A stretch of 41,024 bases of DNA from a virus (IMGVR_UViG_3300025030_000031:1-41024), one strand, 5' to 3'; counted from the stretch's first letter, positions 1 to 41,024 are shown. The notes: generated by a model not told the origin, from the letters alone. Translations and numbers: made by a program.

Positions 1-127
1 ATGTTTTGCATCTGGATGACATGCTTGGTAAAAGAGACATAAAAGTGGAGTGGAAGGACAACCAGTATGCGTTGAAGGGTTATGCGGATTTGAGCTCGGA
101 AGAATACATGGAGGTGATGAGCCTGGG
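1..127. repeat. Terminal direct repeat (contig overlap), left copy
   Basis: Bases 1-127 are identical to bases 40898-41024. An exact end-to-end repeat of 127 bases is what a circular molecule gives when assembled with k=127, so this is most likely an assembly overlap rather than a packaged terminal repeat. The unique genome would then be 40897 bases. Confidence 0.9.
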
Positions 128-9588: not shown

Positions 9589-9815
9589 TATTTCACCCAA
9601 TGCGCGGAATAGATTTTATAAGTAATCCAGCGCAGATAAAAATATTTTATGTGTTCAAGAACCTGAAACAACGTGGGAAAGGAATGCCATAATGCGCGAA
9701 CATATAGCCATGTCCTTTGAGCAGGGGATAGATATTGCCATGCCCTATTTAAGTTTTCTAATCTTTGCTGGCTTCGATACCTTTTGAACCCGCTCAGAGA
9801 TGTTCTGCGCTTCAT
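9588..9815 (-). CDS. Small basic hypothetical protein
   Basis: A 75-residue protein that begins inside the 3' end of the repressor gene and ends by sharing TAGTG with the next gene. It therefore looks translationally coupled on both sides. A purine-rich GAAGAGG precedes the ATG. It is rich in Arg, Tyr and Trp. Its segment LNRAWQYLSPAQRTWL echoes LNRIWEFIPEEIQKKF in the repressor C-terminus, which suggests the two were once related or bind a common partner. No known family was recognised. The 71-base overlap with the repressor is long, so the start or the gene itself is uncertain. Confidence 0.45.
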   Translation of the reverse strand: MKRRTSLSGFKRYRSQQRLENLNRAWQYLSPAQRTWLYVRALWHSFPTLFQVLEHIKYFYLRWITYKIYSAHWVK

Positions 9816-10155
9816 ATCTTTCAGCCTCTTCGGAGAATTTCTTTTGTATCTCTTCTGGAATAAATTCCCAAATACGATTTAATTTTTGAAGATAAGGATT
9901 AGGGCGGGGGAGATCAAGAACATCATAGATTTCGTTTCCAAATATCTCAGCCAAAATCTTTATATTTTCTGTACCTGGCTTTTTATTACCATTCATCCAC
10001 ATATTTACAAGTGGACGGCTTGTCCCAAGGTAAGCAGCAAAATCTTCAATAGTTTTTCTTCTCCCCTCATTGGCTTGCCATTCAACAAACTTACGAGTAA
10101 TCCAATCAGAGAATTTTTCCATATATGAATTCATTCTAATTTGAAAAAGTACCAT
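9745..10155 (-). CDS. CI-like repressor, XRE-type HTH
   Basis: About 136 residues from ATG 10155, which has AAGGG eight bases upstream; ATG 10173, 10134 or 10122 are alternatives. Residues ~35-85 form a helix-turn-helix (TIEDFAAYLGTSRPLVNMWMNG) with the recognition helix at SRPLVNMWM. The tail is helical and charged. There is no peptidase domain, so induction by RecA-driven self-cleavage is not expected. It is transcribed away from the Cro-like gene across an operator region with two palindromes (10188-10212). Together they look like the lysis-lysogeny switch of the phage. Confidence 0.8.
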   Translation of the reverse strand: MVLFQIRMNSYMEKFSDWITRKFVEWQANEGRRKTIEDFAAYLGTSRPLVNMWMNGNKKPGTENIKILAEIFGNEIYDVLDLPRPNPYLQKLNRIWEFIPEEIQKKFSEEAERYEAQNISERVQKVSKPAKIRKLK

Positions 10156-10166
10156 ATGTAAGACCC

Positions 10167-10195
10167 TTGACATAATTTGTTGTTGAGGTTACTAT
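10167..10195 (+). promoter_or_regulatory. Rightward early promoter
   Basis: A consensus -35 TTGACA (10167-10172) and a -10 TACTAT (10190-10195) are separated by exactly 17 bases. The -10 lies inside the operator palindromes, so bound repressor would block it. It would drive the Cro-like gene and the early operon. Confidence 0.75.
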
Positions 10196-11158: not shown

Positions 11159-11417
11159 GAGACCTTCAGTGAATTATATCCGCAAGTTTTTGCCGAGTCT
11201 TCGAAGGGTGTCCACGCTTGAGGGACGCAAGTGGACTATTGATGGCAAAGAGCATTTCGGTACTTTGCAAGAAGTGATCGAATTCTATGGCAAACGCCCT
11301 CCGGAGCTGGCTGAGTTGATGAAGAAATTGCCCGCAGAAACAGAGACTGAATCAATATTGGCAGATATTTTAAACGCTGGCGCAGAGAAGGAAGTGAGCA
11401 ATGTTCCAGCAAATTGA
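11145..11417 (+). CDS. Hypothetical early protein
   Basis: A 90-residue protein. ATG 11145 was chosen because GGGGGAG lies just upstream and the earlier part of the frame only mirrors the zinc-ribbon gene. The N-terminus is strongly basic (KHNKRPSVNYIRKFLPSLRR) and the middle (KWTIDGKEHFGTLQEVIEFYG) looks like a small alpha/beta fold, followed by an acidic helical tail. It overlaps the genes on both sides (11145-11158 and 11401-11417). No family was recognised. Confidence 0.65.
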   Translation: MKHNKRPSVNYIRKFLPSLRRVSTLEGRKWTIDGKEHFGTLQEVIEFYGKRPPELAELMKKLPAETETESILADILNAGAEKEVSNVPAN

Positions 11418-12342
11418 TATTACCCAGTTAGGGGTATCTTCGCAGTTAGATTGGCGCGCGGAGTTTGGTCTGTGGCTGAGACGGACGCCAACTCAGAAAC
11501 GCAGTGAGCGCAGTCACCTTTCGGTGGAGGCATACACATCGGACATCGAGCAGATGAGCCGCTGGTTTACAAGCCGCTATGGTGTGGAGTTTGCGCCAGA
11601 TCATGTCAACAGCGCGAATTTGCAGGAATATTTTGGTGGGCTTGAGTGTGCGCCTGCAACCTATAACCGCAAGCTGGCGAGTGTGCGGATGCTGATCAAA
11701 TGGTCAAGGTCGGTGAATGTTTTGGACTATGACCCAAGTGAGTGGATACCTTTGCAGGACGCGACCAGGGAAAGTCCGCGGGATGTGGTGGAAGATGATC
11801 GCGTGATGTTGGAATTGGCGGCGGAAGAAAACGAGTCCACGCTGATTGGGCTGCGCGATAGTTTGATTTTCTTTTTGATGTCGAACGCGGGGTTGCGTAT
11901 CAGCGAGGTTGTTGATTTAAAGTTGAGCGATCTGCACTTGGATGATGGATATATCCATGTGTTTGGAAAAGGGCAGAAACATCGCAAGGTCAATGTAGGC
12001 GGGCGATTGGTGAAGAAGATCAATGCCTGGTTGAGTCGGATGCCTGCAAGCATTGAAGGCACATTAATTACCGAAGAAAAGGGATTGTCCATTGAACGCG
12101 GGCAGGCTTGGAAACGGTTTGTGTTGATCAGGGAAAATGCGGGCGTGAAAACAACTCCGCACGCGATGAGGCACACGTTTGTGCTGCGCTTCATGGATGC
12201 GGTAATGGGCGGAGATCCCAGCAAGCTGCCTGCGGCAATTGATGCGGTATGTCAACAGACGGGTGATCGCCCTGAGGTCATACTGGCTTATTACACGCGG
12301 GCACGTGAGAGCGATATGCGTGCGGCGGCGGAGGTGATGTGA
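11401..12342 (+). CDS. Tyrosine recombinase, XerC/D type
   Basis: A 313-residue tyrosine recombinase. The N-terminal SAM-like core-binding domain spans ~20-110 (SVEAYTSDIEQMSRWF). The catalytic domain shows the box I arginine in NAGLRISEVVDL, a lysine in FGKGQKHRKV, HAMRHTF with His-x-x-Arg, and the nucleophile region LAYYTRA. The usual box III LGH is replaced by QTGDRPEV, so the third histidine is missing, which may alter activity. It lies inside the early operon and not beside the immunity genes, so it may resolve multimers or act on the phage's own circle instead of integrating it. It is separate from both the serine recombinase and the integron-type integrase. Confidence 0.85.
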   Translation: MFQQIDITQLGVSSQLDWRAEFGLWLRRTPTQKRSERSHLSVEAYTSDIEQMSRWFTSRYGVEFAPDHVNSANLQEYFGGLECAPATYNRKLASVRMLIKWSRSVNVLDYDPSEWIPLQDATRESPRDVVEDDRVMLELAAEENESTLIGLRDSLIFFLMSNAGLRISEVVDLKLSDLHLDDGYIHVFGKGQKHRKVNVGGRLVKKINAWLSRMPASIEGTLITEEKGLSIERGQAWKRFVLIRENAGVKTTPHAMRHTFVLRFMDAVMGGDPSKLPAAIDAVCQQTGDRPEVILAYYTRARESDMRAAAEVM

Positions 12343-15359: not shown

Positions 15360-18300
15360 ATGACGATCATTGATGATATCAAAGGGCGAGTAGATATTGT
15401 GGAGCTGATCCAGCAGGATGTGGTGGTGAAGCTTCGCAGGTCGGGGAAGAACTGGACGGGCTTTTGTCCATTTCATGCGAATTCGCATACGGGTGCGTTG
15501 ATCGTTTTTCCTGATACGGGAACATGGCATTGTTTTGGTTCGTGCAATGAAGGCGGCACAGTGATTGACTGGGTGTTGAAGAAGAATCCAGGCTATGACG
15601 TAAAGGAGGCAATCAGAGATCTTGCTAAATTGGCAAACCTGCCATTGGGCGAGATGGACGGGACTGAACTGAAACAACGCCTCGCTGTGAGAGCGCGTGA
15701 AGACGCATTACAGATCGCCGCACGGTTATTTGCGAAATGGCTGATGGCAGATGAAGAGGCGTTGGCTTACGCGCGCTCACGTGGATGGAGTGACGAGACG
15801 ATCACAGCATCAAGATTGGGTTTCAGCGGACGGGCTTCTGCTGCTCAAGTAAAAGAGATGAAGGGCGAATTTGACCTATACGGCATCAAACATGATTCGC
15901 CCGATGCGGTGCTCGTGCTGGGGTTCAAGGGAGATGTGGCGGTATGGGCGCAGAAACATGATCTTGATCCGCACGGATTCAAGGAGAAGAATATACACGG
16001 GATGATGGATACGCCTGGACTGGTGTACGCGCACAAGCTCTACGGGAGGATCGTGTATCTTTCGCGGAGACAATTGCCAGGGCGGGACGTGATCCGTGAT
16101 AAGGAATCAGGCGCAGAGACAGAATGGAAGTCATTCAATTCCTATGTAACGCTGGCTGGCGAGAAAATCCCATTTTTCAATCACATGCATTTGCGAGATC
16201 ACTCGAAGATCGTGATTGTGGAAGGGCAGGGCGATGCCATTACGCTTGCACAGTGGGGCATCCCTGCGATGGCACTATGCGGATCGGCATGGAAGAACCT
16301 GGGTGAGTATATTGATATGCTCACGGCAAAGAAGGAACATGGAGCTCCATACGACACGATTTACTTTGCGACCGATGCAGACACGCCAGGCGAAGCCATT
16401 GTTACGGGCGCTGGAAAAGATGACGGAAAATTTCCGCTGACTACTGCTTTTGGCGGGATGTTGTGGGTGGCGCGCTGGCCAAAATTCAAATGGGTGCGGC
16501 CGGATGGCAAGGAAAAGATAGGCAAAGACGCGAATGACCTGGCGCAGTATCACGTTGACAACGATATTGAGCCGAAAATGCAAAAGAATAATGTACAGGC
16601 GGTTTTCGACAGCGCTGAGCCAATCGTGTTGATGGCGGCACAATATGCGGGTCGGAAACAAGGCGCGGACCGCACGAAATCACTGGAGATCGTGCTGCCA
16701 TTGATCGCCAGGATGCCCATCAACACGCGCAATGACATGCGTTTGAAGTTGGCAAAGGCATTATATCCAGAGGATCTCTTTCCTGAATATAAAGGCGCTC
16801 CGATAAGACCCTATGAGAAGTTGATCGGGAATGAGATCAAGACTAGGGATGATGAAGATAAGCCTGTTGAAATCGAGGAGGTAATGGGGGGCTGGTATCC
16901 AGTGAATGAAGACGGTTCGGAAGGTTATTTGTTGGAGATGATCTATGACAAGCGGAATGGCAAATCGAAATTTGCATACGCTCATATCTGGCTGAAGAAA
17001 AAGGATAACTCGGTGACCTTGACATCCACGCGCGAGATCGGGACGGCAAATTTTATTGACATCAACGGGAAACGTTACGTTCCAATGATTGATGACAACG
17101 TACGCTATGGTACGGTGAGATTGCCAAGCGAGTTGGGAGCCAAAAAGAGACCCCGCCAGCTGCTGGGCGAGATCAGGCTGTTCATTACAAGATATTTTTT
17201 ATTGGATGCAGATATTCATATCATTCAAAGCTCGTTATATGCACTCTTCACGTGGGTCTACGATTGCTTTCCTTATCTTCCATATTTACGGGCGCGCGGC
17301 GCTCCTGGCTCAGGCAAATCAGAGTTGATGCTGTTGGTTGGTAAGGTGTGCTACCGAATGATGACCACGGCGGGCTTGACAAGCATTGCAGGCTTCAAAG
17401 GCATGGCGCACATCTATAAAGGCACGTTAATGATTGATGAAGTGGATTCGCTGTCTGCAAATAGTAAAGAGGACCGCGGCGAGCTGCGGGCATTGCTGAA
17501 TGTGCGAGCCATGAAAGAACAGGCGCGGATCATAACGATGATGGATGTGGTGAAAGCGGATGGGACACATACGTTTAGGCCTACTACTACTTTTGTGTTC
17601 GGTCCGACGCTGTTGACGATGTATGGCCCATTCAAAGACCCTGCGACAGAAAGCCGATGCCTTTCATTCGATCTGTATAAGCGCGATGTGCGGGATCTGT
17701 TGAATCATAAGCCGAACCCAATTGAGCCAGGTGTAATTCCGCCTGAACAGGAAATCGAAGGCATGGCTTTGACGAATGACTTGTTGTATTTCAGGCTGGA
17801 AACATGGATGCCGAGCATCGAAGTGGATGCATCGGTGAAGCTCACAGATGTGCGAGTGAGCGCACGCATGAACCAGGTGATGCGCCCATTGAAGGTTCTG
17901 GCCTATTTGCAAGAAGATAAAGAATTGATGGAAGATCTGAATATGGTGGCTGAGATCAATTTCGAAGAGGAACAGAATCGGGCGGCGGCTTCGTTCGAGG
18001 CATTGGTATTTCGAGCGGTTGTGGCAGTGAATGAAGACGAAGAGTATGCAAAATATGTACACCTTGGGAAACTGCGAAAACTTGGCATCGTGCGTTATGT
18101 CCTGGCGAAAGACCTCGCGATGATCGCCAACATGATGATGGATGCCGAGAATTATTCGGCTGAAAGCACTCAAAAAAAGAAAGATGATGCTGTGACATCG
18201 CAGACCGTGAGCGGGTATTGTCGTGATTTATTCAGATTGCCAGTGGAGCGGGCAGGTTCGAAGGGCGGCGGTAATGCGGTAGTGCTGGATAAAGAAATGA

Positions 18301-18389
18301 TTTCGGCCATCAAATTCCGTTTTGGAATGGATCAGGTTGATTTGGAAGAGCCGAAACAACTGGAATTGAGTGAGGAAGGAAAAACATGA
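15360..18389 (+). CDS. Primase-helicase (CHC2 zinc, Toprim, ATPase)
   Basis: A 1009-residue replication protein. Residues ~1-100 hold a CHC2 zinc finger (Cys36, His39, Cys58, Cys62 in GFCPFHANS and HCFGSCNEGG). Residues ~280-360 form the Toprim core (IVIVEGQGDAITLAQWG and a DAD-like YFATDADTPGEA). The C-terminal half carries a P-loop ATPase: Walker A GAPGSGKS near 647 and Walker B LMIDEVD near 692. The protein should open the duplex and prime DNA synthesis. It is the only replication enzyme visible; no DNA polymerase is present, so host polymerase must extend. It starts at ATG 15360, and its stop codon is formed inside the first iteron of the downstream array, tying it to the probable origin. 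Confidence 0.88.
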   Translation: MTIIDDIKGRVDIVELIQQDVVVKLRRSGKNWTGFCPFHANSHTGALIVFPDTGTWHCFGSCNEGGTVIDWVLKKNPGYDVKEAIRDLAKLANLPLGEMDGTELKQRLAVRAREDALQIAARLFAKWLMADEEALAYARSRGWSDETITASRLGFSGRASAAQVKEMKGEFDLYGIKHDSPDAVLVLGFKGDVAVWAQKHDLDPHGFKEKNIHGMMDTPGLVYAHKLYGRIVYLSRRQLPGRDVIRDKESGAETEWKSFNSYVTLAGEKIPFFNHMHLRDHSKIVIVEGQGDAITLAQWGIPAMALCGSAWKNLGEYIDMLTAKKEHGAPYDTIYFATDADTPGEAIVTGAGKDDGKFPLTTAFGGMLWVARWPKFKWVRPDGKEKIGKDANDLAQYHVDNDIEPKMQKNNVQAVFDSAEPIVLMAAQYAGRKQGADRTKSLEIVLPLIARMPINTRNDMRLKLAKALYPEDLFPEYKGAPIRPYEKLIGNEIKTRDDEDKPVEIEEVMGGWYPVNEDGSEGYLLEMIYDKRNGKSKFAYAHIWLKKKDNSVTLTSTREIGTANFIDINGKRYVPMIDDNVRYGTVRLPSELGAKKRPRQLLGEIRLFITRYFLLDADIHIIQSSLYALFTWVYDCFPYLPYLRARGAPGSGKSELMLLVGKVCYRMMTTAGLTSIAGFKGMAHIYKGTLMIDEVDSLSANSKEDRGELRALLNVRAMKEQARIITMMDVVKADGTHTFRPTTTFVFGPTLLTMYGPFKDPATESRCLSFDLYKRDVRDLLNHKPNPIEPGVIPPEQEIEGMALTNDLLYFRLETWMPSIEVDASVKLTDVRVSARMNQVMRPLKVLAYLQEDKELMEDLNMVAEINFEEEQNRAAASFEALVFRAVVAVNEDEEYAKYVHLGKLRKLGIVRYVLAKDLAMIANMMMDAENYSAESTQKKKDDAVTSQTVSGYCRDLFRLPVERAGSKGGGNAVVLDKEMISAIKFRFGMDQVDLEEPKQLELSEEGKT

Positions 18390-18694
18390 GGCACATGAGG
18401 CTCATGAGGCAATTTGGGCGTACGGCGAAAAATATTTGTTTTGTGGAAAAAATTCTTTACAAAACAAATATTACAGGGTGCATTTGGGCGATTTTCCCTC
18501 ATAAATCCTCATTTGCCTCATTAAATGGCGTACTTGTATATACATTTATTGGTAAAAGTATCTAAAACATGAGGCTTATGAGGATATATGAAGATAGGTA
18601 AATTAAAGGTTTTTATTTGTCTTGTATATAGGAAGGGTCGCAGGCCTCCGAAAAAGTTTGAAAACATGAGGCAATTATGAGGCAACATGAGGCA
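18385..18694. repeat. Iteron array, probable origin or centromere
   Basis: Eleven copies of an ATGAGG core, most as CATGAGGC, lie in a 310-base gene-free stretch. Forward copies begin at 18385, 18394, 18403 (9-base spacing), 18568, 18578, 18666, 18678 and 18687. Reverse copies are at 18497, 18507 and 18515. Between them is an A+T-rich perfect inverted repeat, AATATTTGTTTTGT (18431-18444) with ACAAAACAAATATT (18459-18472). ATTTGGGCG occurs twice (about 18412 and 18482) and GCGTAC three times. Clustered iterons beside an AT-rich dyad just after a primase-helicase gene are typical of theta origins; a parC-like site for the ParM-like pair is the alternative. Confidence 0.75.
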
Positions 18695-18707
18695 AGGAGC
18701 GTACGAA

Positions 18708-18946
18708 TGAAAAATACGGTCAAGACTGATTTTAGACAGTTTTTGGTGTATGCGGGCCAGCACCCGTGGGAGGATGCGGGATGGCAGATTGGGTTTGATT
18801 TTGGGAAGGTGCAGGTCTCAATTGCATGTACGCCAGAGACAAGGGGAGTTGAATTGATGGCGTGGGGACTGTTTTTGAAGCCTTTGGAATATGTGACTCC
18901 AGCTATGGCGTTGGAGTTTTTGGAAAGGATGGTGCGTGATGAATGA
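18708..18946 (+). CDS. Small hypothetical protein
   Basis: A 79-residue protein. ATG 18708 was chosen because the last iteron is followed by AAGGAG at the right distance; the earlier ATG (18677) lies within the iterons. The sequence has a mixed fold (VYAGQHPWEDAGWQIGFDFGKVQVSIACTPETRGVELMAWGLF). No family was recognised. It overlaps the next gene by eight to eleven bases and is the first gene after the iteron array, so it may bind it. Confidence 0.65.
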
Positions 18947-19643
18947 TGGGCCGCGCGCGTGGAAGTGGATGGTGCCTGGCGTGGGCATCGGAGGGGTGCT
19001 GGTAATGCAATTATGGATCAATGAATATGGCTCTCCGTGGATGGCTTATTGCATTTACGGGACCATACCTGTGATGTTGATCCTTACAGCTCAAAGTGTG
19101 GCGATGTTTTGGGCATATTACAGCGAACTATTTACAGATCAATTTGTGGCGCGGCGGCGGGCTATTGCTACGACTGCTGAAACACAATTATTTGAGATGG
19201 CGCGATTGATGCATCCAGAGACTGTCAGGTTATTGCTGACGCACAGGAAAACGAAATGGCGAATCAAAGAAGCCAAATTGAATGAACTGGTGGATTGGGT
19301 GTTGGATGCGGACCCGCGTATTCGGGTGGAGTTTGTGGAGTATGTGTTGGGGAATTCCACACAATATGCAATGATGCCGATGAATGGTTATTTGAGCGAT
19401 AAGGCATATACATTTAATCCTGATAAGTTGGTGACAGATTATGACCAGTACCGAGCGTTTCACAAACTGCTGATCAATCGGGCTATGGCAACAGATTCAC
19501 TGGGGAGCCAGCCTGGTCAGTGGATCGAGCCGTGGACGCCTGAGCTTGTGGCGCGGCAATTTGGAATTGCGTTGGTGGATGAAAAAGCGGCGGAGTCAAA
19601 GACCCTCGCTGAGCCAGAATTGAAGTCTGTAGTTCAATCATAA
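18939..19643 (+). CDS. Membrane protein with long cytoplasmic domain
   Basis: A 234-residue protein. ATG 18939 is adjacent to a GTG at 18936; either may be used. Two membrane helices lie near residues 8-30 (WMVPGVGIGGVLVMQLWI) and 38-65 (YCIYGTIPVMLILTAQSVAMFW). The remaining ~165 residues are soluble and helical, with an Arg-rich region (VARRRAIATT). It sits between the iterons and the ParM-like gene, so it could anchor DNA or the segregation machinery to the membrane. No known family was recognised. Confidence 0.65.
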   Translation: MNDGPRAWKWMVPGVGIGGVLVMQLWINEYGSPWMAYCIYGTIPVMLILTAQSVAMFWAYYSELFTDQFVARRRAIATTAETQLFEMARLMHPETVRLLLTHRKTKWRIKEAKLNELVDWVLDADPRIRVEFVEYVLGNSTQYAMMPMNGYLSDKAYTFNPDKLVTDYDQYRAFHKLLINRAMATDSLGSQPGQWIEPWTPELVARQFGIALVDEKAAESKTLAEPELKSVVQS

Positions 19644-19658
19644 AAGAGGAGACATACA

Positions 19659-20693
19659 ATGTATAACGATGAAATGATTTATCTCGGTGAGGACCTTGGT
19701 ATGGGCGCAAATAAATTGTGGAGCGCTGGTTGGTATGTGCCTGGAGAAAAGAAAGACAGGTTCAATCTCGTTAAGGCTGGCGGTTCGCAGATGGTGAGCC
19801 AAGTTGCCTCCAATGGGCGCGGGCATTTTGAAGGCATGCTTGGCTTGAAAAGCAAGCGCCGCCCGATGGAGATCTCTTCTGATTTTGGCTCGTTCTATGT
19901 TGGCGATGGAGCGCATGAGTATGGGCGGCCTGTGGAGAATTTGGATTTCGAACGTTTGACTGGCGCGCCTGAGATGCGGGCGTTGCTTTATGGAAGCCTG
20001 GCGCAATTTCAAAAAGTTTACGGAAAGTTTGATCGTCCACTTTCGCTGATGGTGGGCTTGCCATTGCAGATGATGATGGGGGCGGATGCGAAGCAATACC
20101 AGGCTGGGGTGAAGGGATGGCTGAAGGGAACGCACCAATTCACGGCGGATGGGGAGGCGGTGAACATCGAGGTGGGACAGGTGCGGTTGACGAGTCAACC
20201 AGTGGGGGCATTGTTCGATTATGTGCTGGATGATGAAGGTCACATTCAGGCTGATCGCGCGAGCGCCATGCTGGATGAAGTGGGCGTGATCAGCGTTGGT
20301 TTCAACACGGTGGAGCTGCTAGTAGTGAAGGATCAGGGCGCAGTGGAGCGTTTCACTGCTGGTAATACTTTGGGCGTGCGCCGTTTATTGGAGCTTTTGA
20401 ATCGGGATGGATTGTGGTCATTGGGTGAATTGGATGAGAAGGTCCGCACTGGACGAATGCGGGATGAGATGAAGATAATTCTTCCGATTTGGGCGCGCGA
20501 GGTGAATGGTGAGATCGAGCGCAGGTGGGGACAAAGTTTCAAACGTTTTGTGAAAGTGATCGTTGTGGGGGGCGGGGCGTTGTTGTTGAAAGAAGCATTG
20601 ACGGCGCAGTTTGGAGCGAAGGCTTATGTGCCAAATTTGCCTGTGCTGAGTATTTCGAGGGGGTTGTGGAAACTTAGTGTGATGAAGAGGTAA
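19659..20693 (+). CDS. ParM-like actin (plasmid/phage segregation)
   Basis: A 344-residue protein with the signature blocks of the actin-like ATPase superfamily. YLGEDLGMGANKLW (start) is a phosphate-1-type loop. EVGVISVGFNTVELLVV (~residue 205) is the phosphate-2 block, and VIVVGGGALLLKEAL (~295) the adenosine block. Length and pattern fit ParM/Alp-like proteins encoded by plasmids and phages, which polymerise to push DNA copies apart. GAGGAG before ATG 19659 is a good ribosome-binding site. A small basic gene follows two bases after its stop, as ParR follows ParM. Phage PhuZ-like centring is another possible role for cytoskeletal genes, but those are tubulins. Function is inferred from blocks and context. 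Confidence 0.75.
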   Translation: MYNDEMIYLGEDLGMGANKLWSAGWYVPGEKKDRFNLVKAGGSQMVSQVASNGRGHFEGMLGLKSKRRPMEISSDFGSFYVGDGAHEYGRPVENLDFERLTGAPEMRALLYGSLAQFQKVYGKFDRPLSLMVGLPLQMMMGADAKQYQAGVKGWLKGTHQFTADGEAVNIEVGQVRLTSQPVGALFDYVLDDEGHIQADRASAMLDEVGVISVGFNTVELLVVKDQGAVERFTAGNTLGVRRLLELLNRDGLWSLGELDEKVRTGRMRDEMKIILPIWAREVNGEIERRWGQSFKRFVKVIVVGGGALLLKEALTAQFGAKAYVPNLPVLSISRGLWKLSVMKR

Positions 20694-20695
20694 TA

Positions 20696-20968
20696 ATGGC
20701 GAGACCAAGAGACAAGACTCGGAGCGAGCGGATACGCATTGATGGTTATCGCAAGCGCGGCGTTGATGCCCGGCAGGATAAAACATTTGCCTGGCTGGAT
20801 GCAATCCCAGCAGGGAAGCGGTTTGATTTTGCGTGGGAGCTATTCACTGCGGCACTGAATGGTGAGCTTGGATCAGTGATGCAACAGGCAGTTGAGGATG
20901 GTGATGTTGAAAAGGCTCGCGAAGCCGCAACGCAGATCGTTAGTGCGTTTGTTGTGGATGATGACTAA
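20696..20968 (+). CDS. ParR-like small DNA-binding adaptor (tentative)
   Basis: A 90-residue protein starting two bases after the ParM-like gene. The N-terminus is highly basic (ARPRDKTRSERIRIDGYRKRG). The middle reads as a ribbon-helix-helix or short helical fold (FAWLDAIPAGKRFDFAWELFTAALNG), with an acidic C-terminus (FVVDDD). ParR adaptors are small, basic at the N-terminus, bind centromere repeats and cap the ParM filament through their C-terminus. Sequence alone does not prove membership; gene order is the main evidence. Confidence 0.55.
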   Translation: MARPRDKTRSERIRIDGYRKRGVDARQDKTFAWLDAIPAGKRFDFAWELFTAALNGELGSVMQQAVEDGDVEKAREAATQIVSAFVVDDD

Positions 20969-21005
20969 TTCTTAACCGTCAAAAACGATTTCAAATTCTT
21001 AACCG
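20967..21005. repeat. 12-bp direct repeat pair after ParR-like gene
   Basis: AATTCTTAACCG occurs at 20967-20978 and 20994-21005, 27 bases apart, in the 150-base gap downstream of the ParR-like gene. A T-poor, G-rich stretch resembling the intergenic palindromes (CTCCC...GGGGGAGGGG, about 21070-21095) follows. The repeats could be part of a centromere or a regulatory site. Confidence 0.5.
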
Positions 21006-21119
21006 CCAATAACTCCCCTACCCCATTTTGTATTGTTCGCGTGCGCTCGGTGTGGACATGCAAATGGACATCTCCCTTGTGTGGGGGAGGGGAGAAGGCA
21101 AAAGGATGAAGGATGAATT

Positions 21120-21905: not shown

Positions 21906-22324
21906 TGCCAGCTTATAACTTTCAAGAACAGTTTGTGCCAATGATATTGGATGGACAAAAGTCGCATACGATCAGGCGGAGAAGAAAGCATCCGACGAAG
22001 GTGGGTGATAAGTTGATGCTTTATACGGGGATGCGGACGAAGCAATGTAAGTTGATCGTGATGACTGAGTGTGTGAAAGTCGAGCCAATCATGATATGGC
22101 CTTTCAAGAATCATCTGGCTTCGCCGATCAATGTTCCAATTGAGGAATTTGTCCATAATGATGGCTTTGAAAACGTGGATGCCTTCTTTGAATTTTTCAG
22201 GCGATATAAAGCCGAGTGTCTGAATGATTTCGAGATCATTTGGTGGGATGCGAAAACCCTCACCCTGCCCTCTCCCGAGGAGAGAGAGGAAATATATATG
22301 GAGGTGCGTGATGGGAAAGAATAG
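21905..22324 (+). CDS. ASCH/PUA-like domain protein
   Basis: A 139-residue protein from ATG 21905, overlapping the previous stop as TGATG. It opens AYNFQEQFVPMILDGQKSHTIRRRRKHPTKVGDKL and continues LYTGMRTKQCKLIVM, the pattern of ASCH proteins (RNA-binding, PUA-like fold; often near phage nucleotide or RNA-modifying genes). The C-terminal part reads TLTLPSPEEREE and is translated from an intergenic-palindrome-like element (22257-22291), so the true domain probably ends near residue 118. It is coupled to the Gp37/Gp68-like gene, which starts inside its 3' end. Confidence 0.75.
   Translation: MPAYNFQEQFVPMILDGQKSHTIRRRRKHPTKVGDKLMLYTGMRTKQCKLIVMTECVKVEPIMIWPFKNHLASPINVPIEEFVHNDGFENVDAFFEFFRRYKAECLNDFEIIWWDAKTLTLPSPEEREEIYMEVRDGKE
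22257..22291 (+). repeat. Palindrome-like element inside ASCH gene 3' end
   Basis: CACCCTGCCCTCTCCC is followed by GAGGAGAGAGAGG, an inverted repeat that uses the same CACCCTGCCCTC leader as the class-A intergenic palindromes. Here it is translated in frame and adds a charged tail to the ASCH protein. Confidence 0.6.
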
Positions 22325-23459
22325 CAAAATCCAATGGACAGATCACACGTTCAATCCGTGGATGGGTTGCACCAAGGTTTCGCCTGGGTGTGTGAATTGC
22401 TATGCAGAACGCGACATGGATATACATTGGCATAAGGTGCAGTGGGGTCCGCAGGGAATGCGGGTGCGGACGAGTAAAGCGAATTGGCGTCAGCCGTTGA
22501 AATGGAACAAGGATGAATTGTGGGAGCAATGTATTGGTTGCGGCTATCGTGGGCCGTTGGCTTCGTTCAATAATTTCCGCATGGATTTGGAAGGGGATGG
22601 CGGATATACAGTGGATTGTCCGAAGTGTCCATCCATTGAAACATTCAGAACCCGACAACGGGTGTTTTGCGCGAGTCTGGCAGATGTAGGCGATCATCAT
22701 CCGAGCGTGCTGAATGAATGGATCGAAGACCTGGTGCGGCTGATCGAGCAAACGCAGAATTTGGATTGGATGCTGTTGACAAAACGCCCTGAGGATTTGT
22801 TGGCTCGATTCGGAATGTTTTGGGGACTTGAACGGTGGCCAGAAAATGTATGGGTTGGCGTTTCGACTGAAGACCAGAAATGCGCGAATAAACGAATTCC
22901 GGTCCTTCAGAGTATCCCAGCGGCAGTGCGATTTGTTTCCTGCGAACCGCTGCTTGGTTATATTGATTTGAGCGAGGCGGTTGAGCCTGATAAAGAAGCG
23001 TGGCATGAAGTCAGTGCAAGACAAGATGATGATGAGCCTGAGGAGTTTGTTGAAGAGTGCGAAGCCGAATGTGATTGGGTGAATTTCGGGAATGATCTGG
23101 TCGACAATCCTGAACATCGAGAGTGGGTGGAACGAAGGCGCCTGATAGCTGGCTTCAAAACCTTGAAGCATGGCGCGATTGATTTGGTGATCGCTGGCGG
23201 GGAGAGCGGCTCGGAGGCGCGACTCACAGACCCGAATTGGCTTCGCGCGCTACGGGATGAATGTACGCAGGCTGGTATTCGGTTTTTCTTCAAGCAGTGG
23301 GGAGAGAATGTTCCGCTTGACCATCTCCCCTGGGTGACGGACAAAATTACGTTCAAACATAAACCTGTCGAGATCAATGGGACGATGATGGCGCGTGTTG
23401 GGAAGGGGATGGCTGGCAGGGTGCTGGATGGAAGAGAATGGAGTGAGATGCCGAGATGA
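22311..23459 (+). CDS. Phage Gp37/Gp68 family (DUF5131), radical-SAM-like
   Basis: A 382-residue protein. ATG 22311 was chosen because GGAGGTGCGTG precedes it and the family starts KIQWTDHTFNPWMGCTKVSPGC. The GCTKVSPGCVNCYAE cysteines resemble a radical-SAM iron-sulfur site, as in the DUF5131 family. The protein also has an inserted Cys-rich zinc knuckle (CIGCGYRG ... CPKCPS, residues ~74-105). Conserved blocks WMLLTKRPEDL, WVGVSTEDQKCANKRIPVL and FVSCEPLLG follow. The substrate is unknown; DUF5131 members are common in phages and mobile elements. Its stop overlaps the integron integrase start (ATGA). Confidence 0.85.
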   Translation: MGKNSKIQWTDHTFNPWMGCTKVSPGCVNCYAERDMDIHWHKVQWGPQGMRVRTSKANWRQPLKWNKDELWEQCIGCGYRGPLASFNNFRMDLEGDGGYTVDCPKCPSIETFRTRQRVFCASLADVGDHHPSVLNEWIEDLVRLIEQTQNLDWMLLTKRPEDLLARFGMFWGLERWPENVWVGVSTEDQKCANKRIPVLQSIPAAVRFVSCEPLLGYIDLSEAVEPDKEAWHEVSARQDDDEPEEFVEECEAECDWVNFGNDLVDNPEHREWVERRRLIAGFKTLKHGAIDLVIAGGESGSEARLTDPNWLRALRDECTQAGIRFFFKQWGENVPLDHLPWVTDKITFKHKPVEINGTMMARVGKGMAGRVLDGREWSEMPR

Positions 23460-26792: not shown

Positions 26793-28553
26793 GTGGCAAA
26801 AACACTATTGATTGACACCTGGGAATCGGGTGGAGAGATTGATGAGAATATTTTGCTTGCCAATGGCATAGCAGGTATGATCATGTGTCTTAATGACATA
26901 AGCGGCGGCCATCACATGGACGAGAACTTTATCGTCCAATGGGAACAAGCCAGGGCGTTGCCTGTGCGAATTCCATATTTTGTTTATAACCCGTGGAAAA
27001 ACGGACAAGAGAACTATGACTGGTTAGCAGCTCACATCCCTGATGAGTGTGGCGCAGTCATGGTGGATGTGGAGGTTAGATACACGGGGTATTCACCAGA
27101 TATCTACGCAAGTGAACTTGAGAAATTCAAGACGCTCGTCGCTGCAAAGTACAACTATCTTATCTATACAGGGCAAGGGTATTTGGATTTATGTACCTAT
27201 TGGCCGGACGCAGGCTATTGGTGGGCGGCATATCCTCTTGCGTTTTACCAATATGAAACCATCACATGGGATGTCCTAAGGGCACGACTGGAAACAATAC
27301 CTCGCCCCGCTAATGAATTTCGAATCCCTGGTTCTGGCATTCTTAAAATGTGGCAGTTCACGGGTGACAGGATCATCCTGCCTGGTTGCAATAAGCGCAT
27401 GGATGTGAATGTTTTCTATGGGACTCTGGATGAGCTGAAAGCATTTGCAAACGAGAAACCAACTGATCCAGACACTCCCCCTGACGGCGCTAGATTGATA
27501 AGCGAGCGTGAATATTATCCGGGCGCATTCTATCGCCAATACGAAATCAGGCTGCCTGTCTCAGGATTGACCACCTACCATGTGCTCGAGTTCGATTCTG
27601 ACCAGGCAGAATTATTCGTAAGCCCCAGACCACTTGGAAACAACTACGTCCCGCAACTCACCAAAAAGTACGGGCAAGACTTCGGGATGAATTGCGATGG
27701 ATTCGTAGGAAACAATATTACCGGCTATGCAATCAGCAACGGCGTGCCCTATGGCACACAGAACGTAGAGGAAACCCTTTACATCAGTAAGAACAATGGA
27801 TTTACTCTTACACGCCCATCCGTTTTGAATATGGCGTTTTCGTTTCCAAATGTGCTTGTAAGGGATGGAGTTATTCCGTATATAGATAAGGGGGATGATT
27901 GGCGGGCAAGAAGCGCGTTTGGATATACCAAAGATCAAAGCAAATTCTTTTTCGTTGTCGTTGACGGAAAAGATTATCTCGAGCAGGTTGGAGCATCTTT
28001 CAAAGAGACGGCGGCAATTATGCTGGAACTCGGATGCTTTTTCGCCGTGATGTGTGACGGCGGCGGGTCGTCAACACTGGCGGCAATGGATAACGGCTTT
28101 CCCGAATTACTGAATAAGGCATGGGGCGAGGAGCCAGAGGTCGGATACTTCGAAGGATACAGCTACAAAATGAGGCCAGTTGCACAAATACTGGGCGTAA
28201 AAATGAAATCAGATGTGATCGTGATACCACCCGAAGGAGGCAATATGTTTACAGTCAAAAAAAGTGCGAGGTTTCGGTCGCTCCCAACTATGACCACCAA
28301 CGATCAGGGCGCAAGCTCGGTCGTTGGCGAGACTTTTGAAAGCGCAACTACTGTGCTTGATATTAACAATCCATCAATAACAATGGTACAGCATACAAAT
28401 GGTAAGTGGCTGCCATTAGAAATCAATGGCGTTGTTTATACGTCCGGCGAAGTTGTCACTCTTCCTCCGCCAACTGAAAGCTCGTTCGTATCTGCCACAC
28501 TTACCCGCGCAGACGGAACGCATGTTGACTTCGACCTGGTTCCAAAGGCATAA
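26793..28553 (+). CDS. Endolysin: GH25-like lysozyme + NAGPA-type glycosidase + SH3
   Basis: A 586-residue protein from GTG 26793 with three parts. Residues ~1-215 resemble GH25 lysozymes (LIDTWESGGEID ... GAVMVDVE ... YLIYTGQGYLD ... LKMWQFTGD). Residues ~240-460 match the phosphodiester glycosidase (NAGPA) fold: MNCDGFVGNN, FVVVDGKDYLEQVG, LGCFFAVMCDGGGSSTLA. Residues ~485-586 look like an SH3-type wall-binding domain. GH25 enzymes cut the glycan of peptidoglycan, and NAGPA-like domains remove sugar-phosphate links in wall polymers. The fusion suggests two wall bonds are attacked at release or entry. There is no signal peptide, so the membrane protein upstream would be needed to let it out. 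Confidence 0.8.
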   Translation: MAKTLLIDTWESGGEIDENILLANGIAGMIMCLNDISGGHHMDENFIVQWEQARALPVRIPYFVYNPWKNGQENYDWLAAHIPDECGAVMVDVEVRYTGYSPDIYASELEKFKTLVAAKYNYLIYTGQGYLDLCTYWPDAGYWWAAYPLAFYQYETITWDVLRARLETIPRPANEFRIPGSGILKMWQFTGDRIILPGCNKRMDVNVFYGTLDELKAFANEKPTDPDTPPDGARLISEREYYPGAFYRQYEIRLPVSGLTTYHVLEFDSDQAELFVSPRPLGNNYVPQLTKKYGQDFGMNCDGFVGNNITGYAISNGVPYGTQNVEETLYISKNNGFTLTRPSVLNMAFSFPNVLVRDGVIPYIDKGDDWRARSAFGYTKDQSKFFFVVVDGKDYLEQVGASFKETAAIMLELGCFFAVMCDGGGSSTLAAMDNGFPELLNKAWGEEPEVGYFEGYSYKMRPVAQILGVKMKSDVIVIPPEGGNMFTVKKSARFRSLPTMTTNDQGASSVVGETFESATTVLDINNPSITMVQHTNGKWLPLEINGVVYTSGEVVTLPPPTESSFVSATLTRADGTHVDFDLVPKA

Positions 28554-40881: not shown

Positions 40882-41024
40882 ATGAACGAAAAAAATAATG
40901 TTTTGCATCTGGATGACATGCTTGGTAAAAGAGACATAAAAGTGGAGTGGAAGGACAACCAGTATGCGTTGAAGGGTTATGCGGATTTGAGCTCGGAAGA
41001 ATACATGGAGGTGATGAGCCTGGG
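40882..41024 (+). CDS. Tail assembly chaperone, gpG-like, 5' end
   Basis: The gene begins at ATG 40882 with GGAGAATAAGAT just upstream (MNEKNNVLHLDDMLGKRDIK) and runs off the end of the window at 41024. The same frame continues at base 1 through 332, where the frameshift signal lies. Only the first 47 codons or so are visible here; the full gene was joined by way of the 127-base overlap. Confidence 0.85.
   Translation, partial: MNEKNNVLHLDDMLGKRDIKVEWKDNQYALKGYADLSSEEYMEVMSL
40898..41024. repeat. Terminal direct repeat (contig overlap), right copy
   Basis: Second copy of the 127-base end repeat. The tail-chaperone gene that starts at 40882 continues without a break at base 1, which supports joining the ends into a circle. 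Confidence 0.9.

Follow-up and report, generated by a model that had tools for sequence, protein, structure and literature searches.

A ParMRC-like module conserved across a lineage of temperate phages that also carries a large serine integrase

Why should a phage that encodes a large serine integrase also carry an actin and an adaptor of the kind that partition plasmids? The question is raised by the stretch of viral DNA analysed here (hereafter the window; an IMG/VR virus record of 41,024 nt), whose two ends share 127 identical bases and which therefore represents a closed genome; the related records G006 and G007 show the same 127-base overlap of their ends. In the window, tail genes are followed on the minus strand by the serine integrase gene and a gene for a CI-like regulator, and then on the plus strand by genes for a tyrosine recombinase, a topoisomerase and a primase, by iterons, by small genes and by the genes for the actin and a 90-residue protein; DUF5131, second tyrosine recombinase, HNH, terminase, portal and capsid genes come next (Table 1). 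The original prediction read the centre of this genome as a type II partition system, that is, an actin-type ATPase gene, a small basic gene two bases further on and a repeat array close by, in a phage that would usually live as a plasmid and might choose between that state and integration. The layout is borne out by the two open reading frames and the interval between them, and the coexistence of the actin with a full-length serine integrase gene extends to about ten records of the lineage. Two other genes of the window have an obscure role in a phage, namely those for the 411-residue DUF5131 protein (22224-23459) and for a 586-residue protein with a phosphodiester glycosidase (NAGPA) domain (26793-28553).

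Table 1. Features of the window that bear on partition, replication and integration.
Feature	Position	Strand	Basis
Direct terminal repeat	1..127		exact 127-base identity with 40898-41024
Large serine integrase, 565 aa	7273..8970	-	PF00239, PF07508, PF13408; phrog_95
CI-like transcriptional regulator adjoining the integrase	9745..10173	-	phrog_8 transcriptional regulator, 1.9e-8
Tyrosine recombinase A	11401..12342	+	PF00589
DNA primase, 1009 aa, CHC2 zinc finger and Toprim	15360..18389	+	profile matches
Candidate replication origin: iteron array (eight ATGAGGC copies, clustered) and AT-rich stretches	18385..18694	+	repeat scan
Perfect 14-bp inverted repeat AATATTTGTTTTGT/ACAAAACAAATATT within the iteron array	18431..18472		similar element in G015 and G001
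Predicted membrane protein, 235 aa, directly 5' of parM	18936..19643	+	tblastn matches; hydropathy
ParM-type actin-like ATPase, 344 aa	19659..20693	+	Pfam, PHROG, PDB profile, AlphaFold/Foldseek
ParR-like adaptor, 90 aa (putative function)	20696..20968	+	homologue after parM in relatives; alignment; model
parC candidate: two copies of AATTCTTAACCG(T/C)CAA(A/T)AAC, 27 bp apart	20967..21013	+	repeat conservation
Tyrosine recombinase B, 326 aa	23456..24436	+	profile matches

Sequence profiles and fold prediction concur that the 344-residue protein is a ParM-type actin and not a member of some non-actin family. It matches the Pfam families PF17989 (ALP_N, 3.9e-10) and PF21522 (MreB-like_C, 2.7e-8) and the PHROG family phrog_691, annotated as 'partition protein' (7e-27), and a profile built from a 32-member alignment finds pCBH ParM in the PDB (1.7e-12) as well as Alp12. 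Its AlphaFold model (pLDDT 86.7, pTM 0.87) has pSK41 ParM as the top solved structure in Foldseek (E 9.4e-20, TM 0.69-0.74), followed by pCBH ParM, Ta0583 and CorM and, lower down, by R1 ParM. The phosphate-1 motif (DLGMGANK, of the DxGxGxxK type) and the GGG of the adenosine loop (VGGGA) are kept, and Gln180 occupies the catalytic position at which pSK41 and pCBH likewise carry Gln. By contrast, the phosphate-2 motif begins with a serine (S212), and Ser stands at this position in 31 of the 32 aligned members, Pro in the remaining one (L041) and Asp in none, whereas the plasmid relatives and those of Bacillus and Paenibacillus phages retain the Asp, as seen in pCBH, CorM, Alp12, a Lactobacillus-type plasmid ParM and the phages API480 and CampHawk. 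In R1 ParM the corresponding residue, D170, is required for ATP hydrolysis. Judging from this replacement, the ATPase cycle of the window ParM could differ from that of its better-known relatives. One might go further and imagine a bistable lysogeny of Anaerolineae siphophages, maintained either by the serine integrase or through plasmid partition by a Ser-variant ParM whose filaments cycle differently, for example hydrolysing ATP slowly and remaining stable while tied to the membrane protein encoded next to parM, a scenario that we consider improbable.

Relatives of this ParM at a threshold of 1e-30 occur in 35 of 396 genomes of the class Anaerolineae, and because of these matches the hosts of the lineage are probably Anaerolineae, a little-studied group of bacteria; we found no literature on ParM in phages of this class. 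Divergent homologues are also seen on very long Anaerolineae contigs (G312:C3:1551792, G420:C59:151327 and G373:C114:155822), where they are perhaps chromosomal rather than phage-borne. Among described viruses, Rctr41k (KX853513, from a DAMO/AAA enrichment) resembles the window in its 54% identical ParM, its ParR-like gene, a TTAACCG doublet spaced at 27 bp and two tyrosine recombinases, but its ParM is annotated merely as hypothetical, its serine-recombinase match is short and an extra gene lies between parM and parR. A separate observation concerns record G012 (L064, L065), which is 69% identical to the window in portal, 65% in capsid and 60% in integrase, but only 54% in ParM, and has no clear parC doublet; going by these identities, the two genomes are mosaic.

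If the actin is a ParM, its gene should be accompanied by that of an adaptor. A small gene does lie 3' of parM in most of those relatives whose sequence extends far enough, homologous to the one in the window, and in two loci (L004, L006) an additional gene separates the pair. Searches of this protein against Pfam, PHROG, the PDB (by profile) and Foldseek gave no significant family or fold match; its profile matches StbB and pSK41-type ParR weakly (E about 1.5), and the adaptor of one relative matches Plasmid_stab_B, again weakly (E 0.018). In an alignment of 22 members the N-terminus is basic, two helices are predicted and the C-terminus carries a short tail that is conserved (FVVDD/FVVE/NWEF). 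The model (pLDDT 71), with helices at residues 25-35 and 39-54, could represent one half of a ribbon-helix-helix dimer. Our best guess is that the 90-residue protein is a ParR, which would adopt a ribbon-helix-helix fold and bind DNA. On the other side of parM, homologues of the predicted membrane protein occupy the same position in many relatives, and these proteins hit no Pfam family above the cut-off. By eye, the C-terminus of the upstream membrane protein resembles a winged helix in L006, L016 and L038, and in L029-L036 an FtsK-like ATPase takes the place of the membrane protein, often with a lipoprotein-like protein before it.

A partition system of this type also needs a centromere, and two sets of repeats lie near parMR. 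Directly 3' of parR, the window has two copies of AATTCTTAACCGYCAAWAAC at 27 bp spacing, centred on TTAACCG. A TTAACCG pair adjoins parMR in 14 of 38 loci, all of them related to one another (two, L017 and L023, have only part of parM), and is found nowhere else in those loci; the spacing is 27 bp in eleven, 28 in two and 18 in one. No record, in 686 kb altogether, has more than one such pair, and shuffled par regions yielded it in 9 of 7600 trials. Where a gene is inserted between parM and parR (L004, L006), the doublet remains beside parR; in L021 it precedes parM. Four distant loci (L014, L036, L037, L038) carry after parR a doublet of other sequence with 27-29 bp spacing, and a scan of the same place in L007, L008, L018 and L027 showed no clear doublet. 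Because the sequence of the doublet shifts while its place and spacing hold, the pattern fits a centromere that coevolves with its adaptor. The doublet is thus likely parC, a newly located candidate for a two-site centromere.

The second set of repeats is the iteron array, which is confirmed as predicted: ATGAGGC occurs eight times, seven on the plus and one on the minus strand, and forms the strongest short-repeat peak of the window (score 32 against a mean of 3.2 and a standard deviation of 3.2). That prominence is what speaks for taking these iterons as the centromere and the doublet as only an operator or terminator. However, the array overlaps the 3' end of the primase gene, and a similar array, with clusters in both orientations and AT-rich stretches, begins at the primase gene or shortly beyond it in 10 of the 12 primase-bearing records scanned (G005 and G021 were not resolved). 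Among the repeat peaks of its own record, this array ranks first in eight cases and second in the other two. Its core also varies, from ATGAGGC in the window to mostly TGAAC in other records, among relatives that have the TTAACCG doublet in common, whereas the doublet goes with parR and consists of direct rather than hairpin-forming repeats. We therefore dropped the iterons as parC and regard that assignment as very unlikely. They are probably not the centromere, and since they directly follow the primase gene in those 10 records they look like a replication origin; comparable repeats are bound by the primase-helicase of phage P4. Repeats of the kind expected of a centromere beside parMR are present in the doublet, a candidate for adaptor binding.

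Taken as a whole, the operon and doublet probably constitute a type II, ParMRC-like segrosome that acts on circular, extrachromosomal phage DNA. The phage circle would be replicated from the iteron origin adjoining the primase gene, the adaptor would bind the two TTAACCG sites just 3' of its own gene, and its conserved C-terminal tail would couple the circle to the end of an ATP-dependent ParM filament and so allow the circle to be moved and segregated, while the serine integrase would provide an integrated state for the same phage. The module resembles ParMRC of pSK41, pCBH and R1 in its actin-fold ATPase, for which ParM is the best match by fold and by profile, in the order parM-parR, in the small basic adaptor and in the adjacent repeats. 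It differs from them in being phage-borne, in a parC candidate of two sites spaced at 27 bp and usually placed after parR, in the Asp-to-Ser change and in an adaptor not recognisable by sequence. Against the segrosome stand the number of sites, two being few for a ParR ring, the modest model of the adaptor and its lack of a significant match, the loci without a clear doublet, the mutual relatedness of the loci compared and the phosphate-2 Ser of the ParM.

Does such a circle amount to a plasmid prophage? The original prediction assumed that phages with such systems usually live as plasmids, a generalisation that finds no support here in that form. SPO1-group Bacillus phages, which also carry ParM homologues, are lytic. 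The Corynebacterium prophage CGP3 is integrated and its AlpAC system aids replication of phage DNA, segregation being judged unlikely (PMC4446434), and a survey of plasmid prophages warns that a partition gene alone is no proof of plasmid lysogeny (PMC8026635). Nor is the phage an obligate plasmid prophage, which would lack a full-length integrase: the window, whose protein has Resolvase, Recombinase and zinc-ribbon domains, and about ten records carry one. A search with PF00239 identified a serine integrase gene in 9 of 23 records, the window among them, and tblastn added G015.

It is possible, though we hold it with reservation, that the phage is a facultative plasmid prophage, a narrower form of the segrosome model in which a low-copy, ParMRC-partitioned circle can persist long-term and the serine integrase offers the phage another state. 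A closed and circular assembly would fit, as would the primase with its origin-like iterons and tyrosine recombinases that could resolve dimers, and the closed relative G007 has ParMR, iterons and two tyrosine recombinases and no serine integrase. ParM-encoding plasmid prophages of the Bacillus cereus group such as B83 are likewise siphoviruses with ParM, a small ribbon-helix-helix adaptor and Xer-like recombinases, but they belong to another host phylum and the table rows consulted for the ParM-bearing phages list no large serine integrase (PMC8026635). However, virion DNA would give a closed assembly equally well, ParMR lies on the replication strand apart from repressor and integrase, a consensus scan for promoters and terminators at the operon found no more than in shuffles and hence no promoter of its own for ParMR, and most larger relatives keep the integrase. 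Across the relatives and Anaerolineae contigs compared, we found no direct sign of a plasmid prophage.

Alternatively, the prophage could be integrated and the actin could serve only after excision, positioning replicating DNA at a site in the cell during the lytic phase and raising phage copy number, as in CGP3, another integrating phage with an actin and a DNA-binding adaptor, in which AlpC and AlpA lift circular phage DNA about 2-fold (PMC4446434). The primase and origin upstream of ParMR on the same strand, the membrane protein gene before parM in many relatives and the ParM homologues of the SPO1 group would all suit this reading, and TTAACCG matches the alpS motif TTAAnnG (PMC4446434). 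Yet this likeness amounts to five fixed bases and may be chance, AlpA precedes AlpC and alpS lies upstream of the operon whereas the window has the plasmid order with the adaptor downstream, and fold and profile matches favour plasmid ParMs. We regard lytic-phase positioning as a possibility on the doubtful side.

A role in stabilising an integrative element while it is excised and replicating also has a precedent, as SXT/R391 ICEs, which integrate too, are stabilised by the type II partition locus SrpMRC, although these are conjugative elements and not phages, and the locus has four 13-bp sites upstream of srpM (PMC4489591). Related ParMs do occur in elements beside host-like genes on Anaerolineae contigs: L030 combines one with a ParR-like gene, a XerC-like gene, a primase and an integrase and is flanked by host-like genes, and G123:C15 (a 133.6-kb contig) has one in an element-like gene set. 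These ParMs are, however, just 45-59% identical to that of the window, and their elements showed no phage structural genes where checked. We found no integrated copy of the window phage either: the integrase matches checked on MAG contigs (L044-L051, stretches of 3-4.5 kb around the match) lie without any other window phage genes, and neither the window nor eight checked loci contain tRNA genes as integration sites. This role appears rather unlikely to us.

The ParMRC-like module of this temperate lineage is real and conserved, and under the segrosome model that we favour the phage probably keeps its DNA both as a separate circle and inserted in the host chromosome. That circle may belong to a plasmid prophage or be no more than replicating DNA after excision, with precedents for both among the systems compared. 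The predictions for this Anaerolineae phage lineage are a precisely placed centromere of two sites and an origin of replication, and the clade-wide change from Asp to Ser in its ParM offers a way to test what a textbook catalytic residue does. With both its integrase and its partition module kept, the lineage is well suited to asking whether phage actins segregate DNA, promote its replication or do both.
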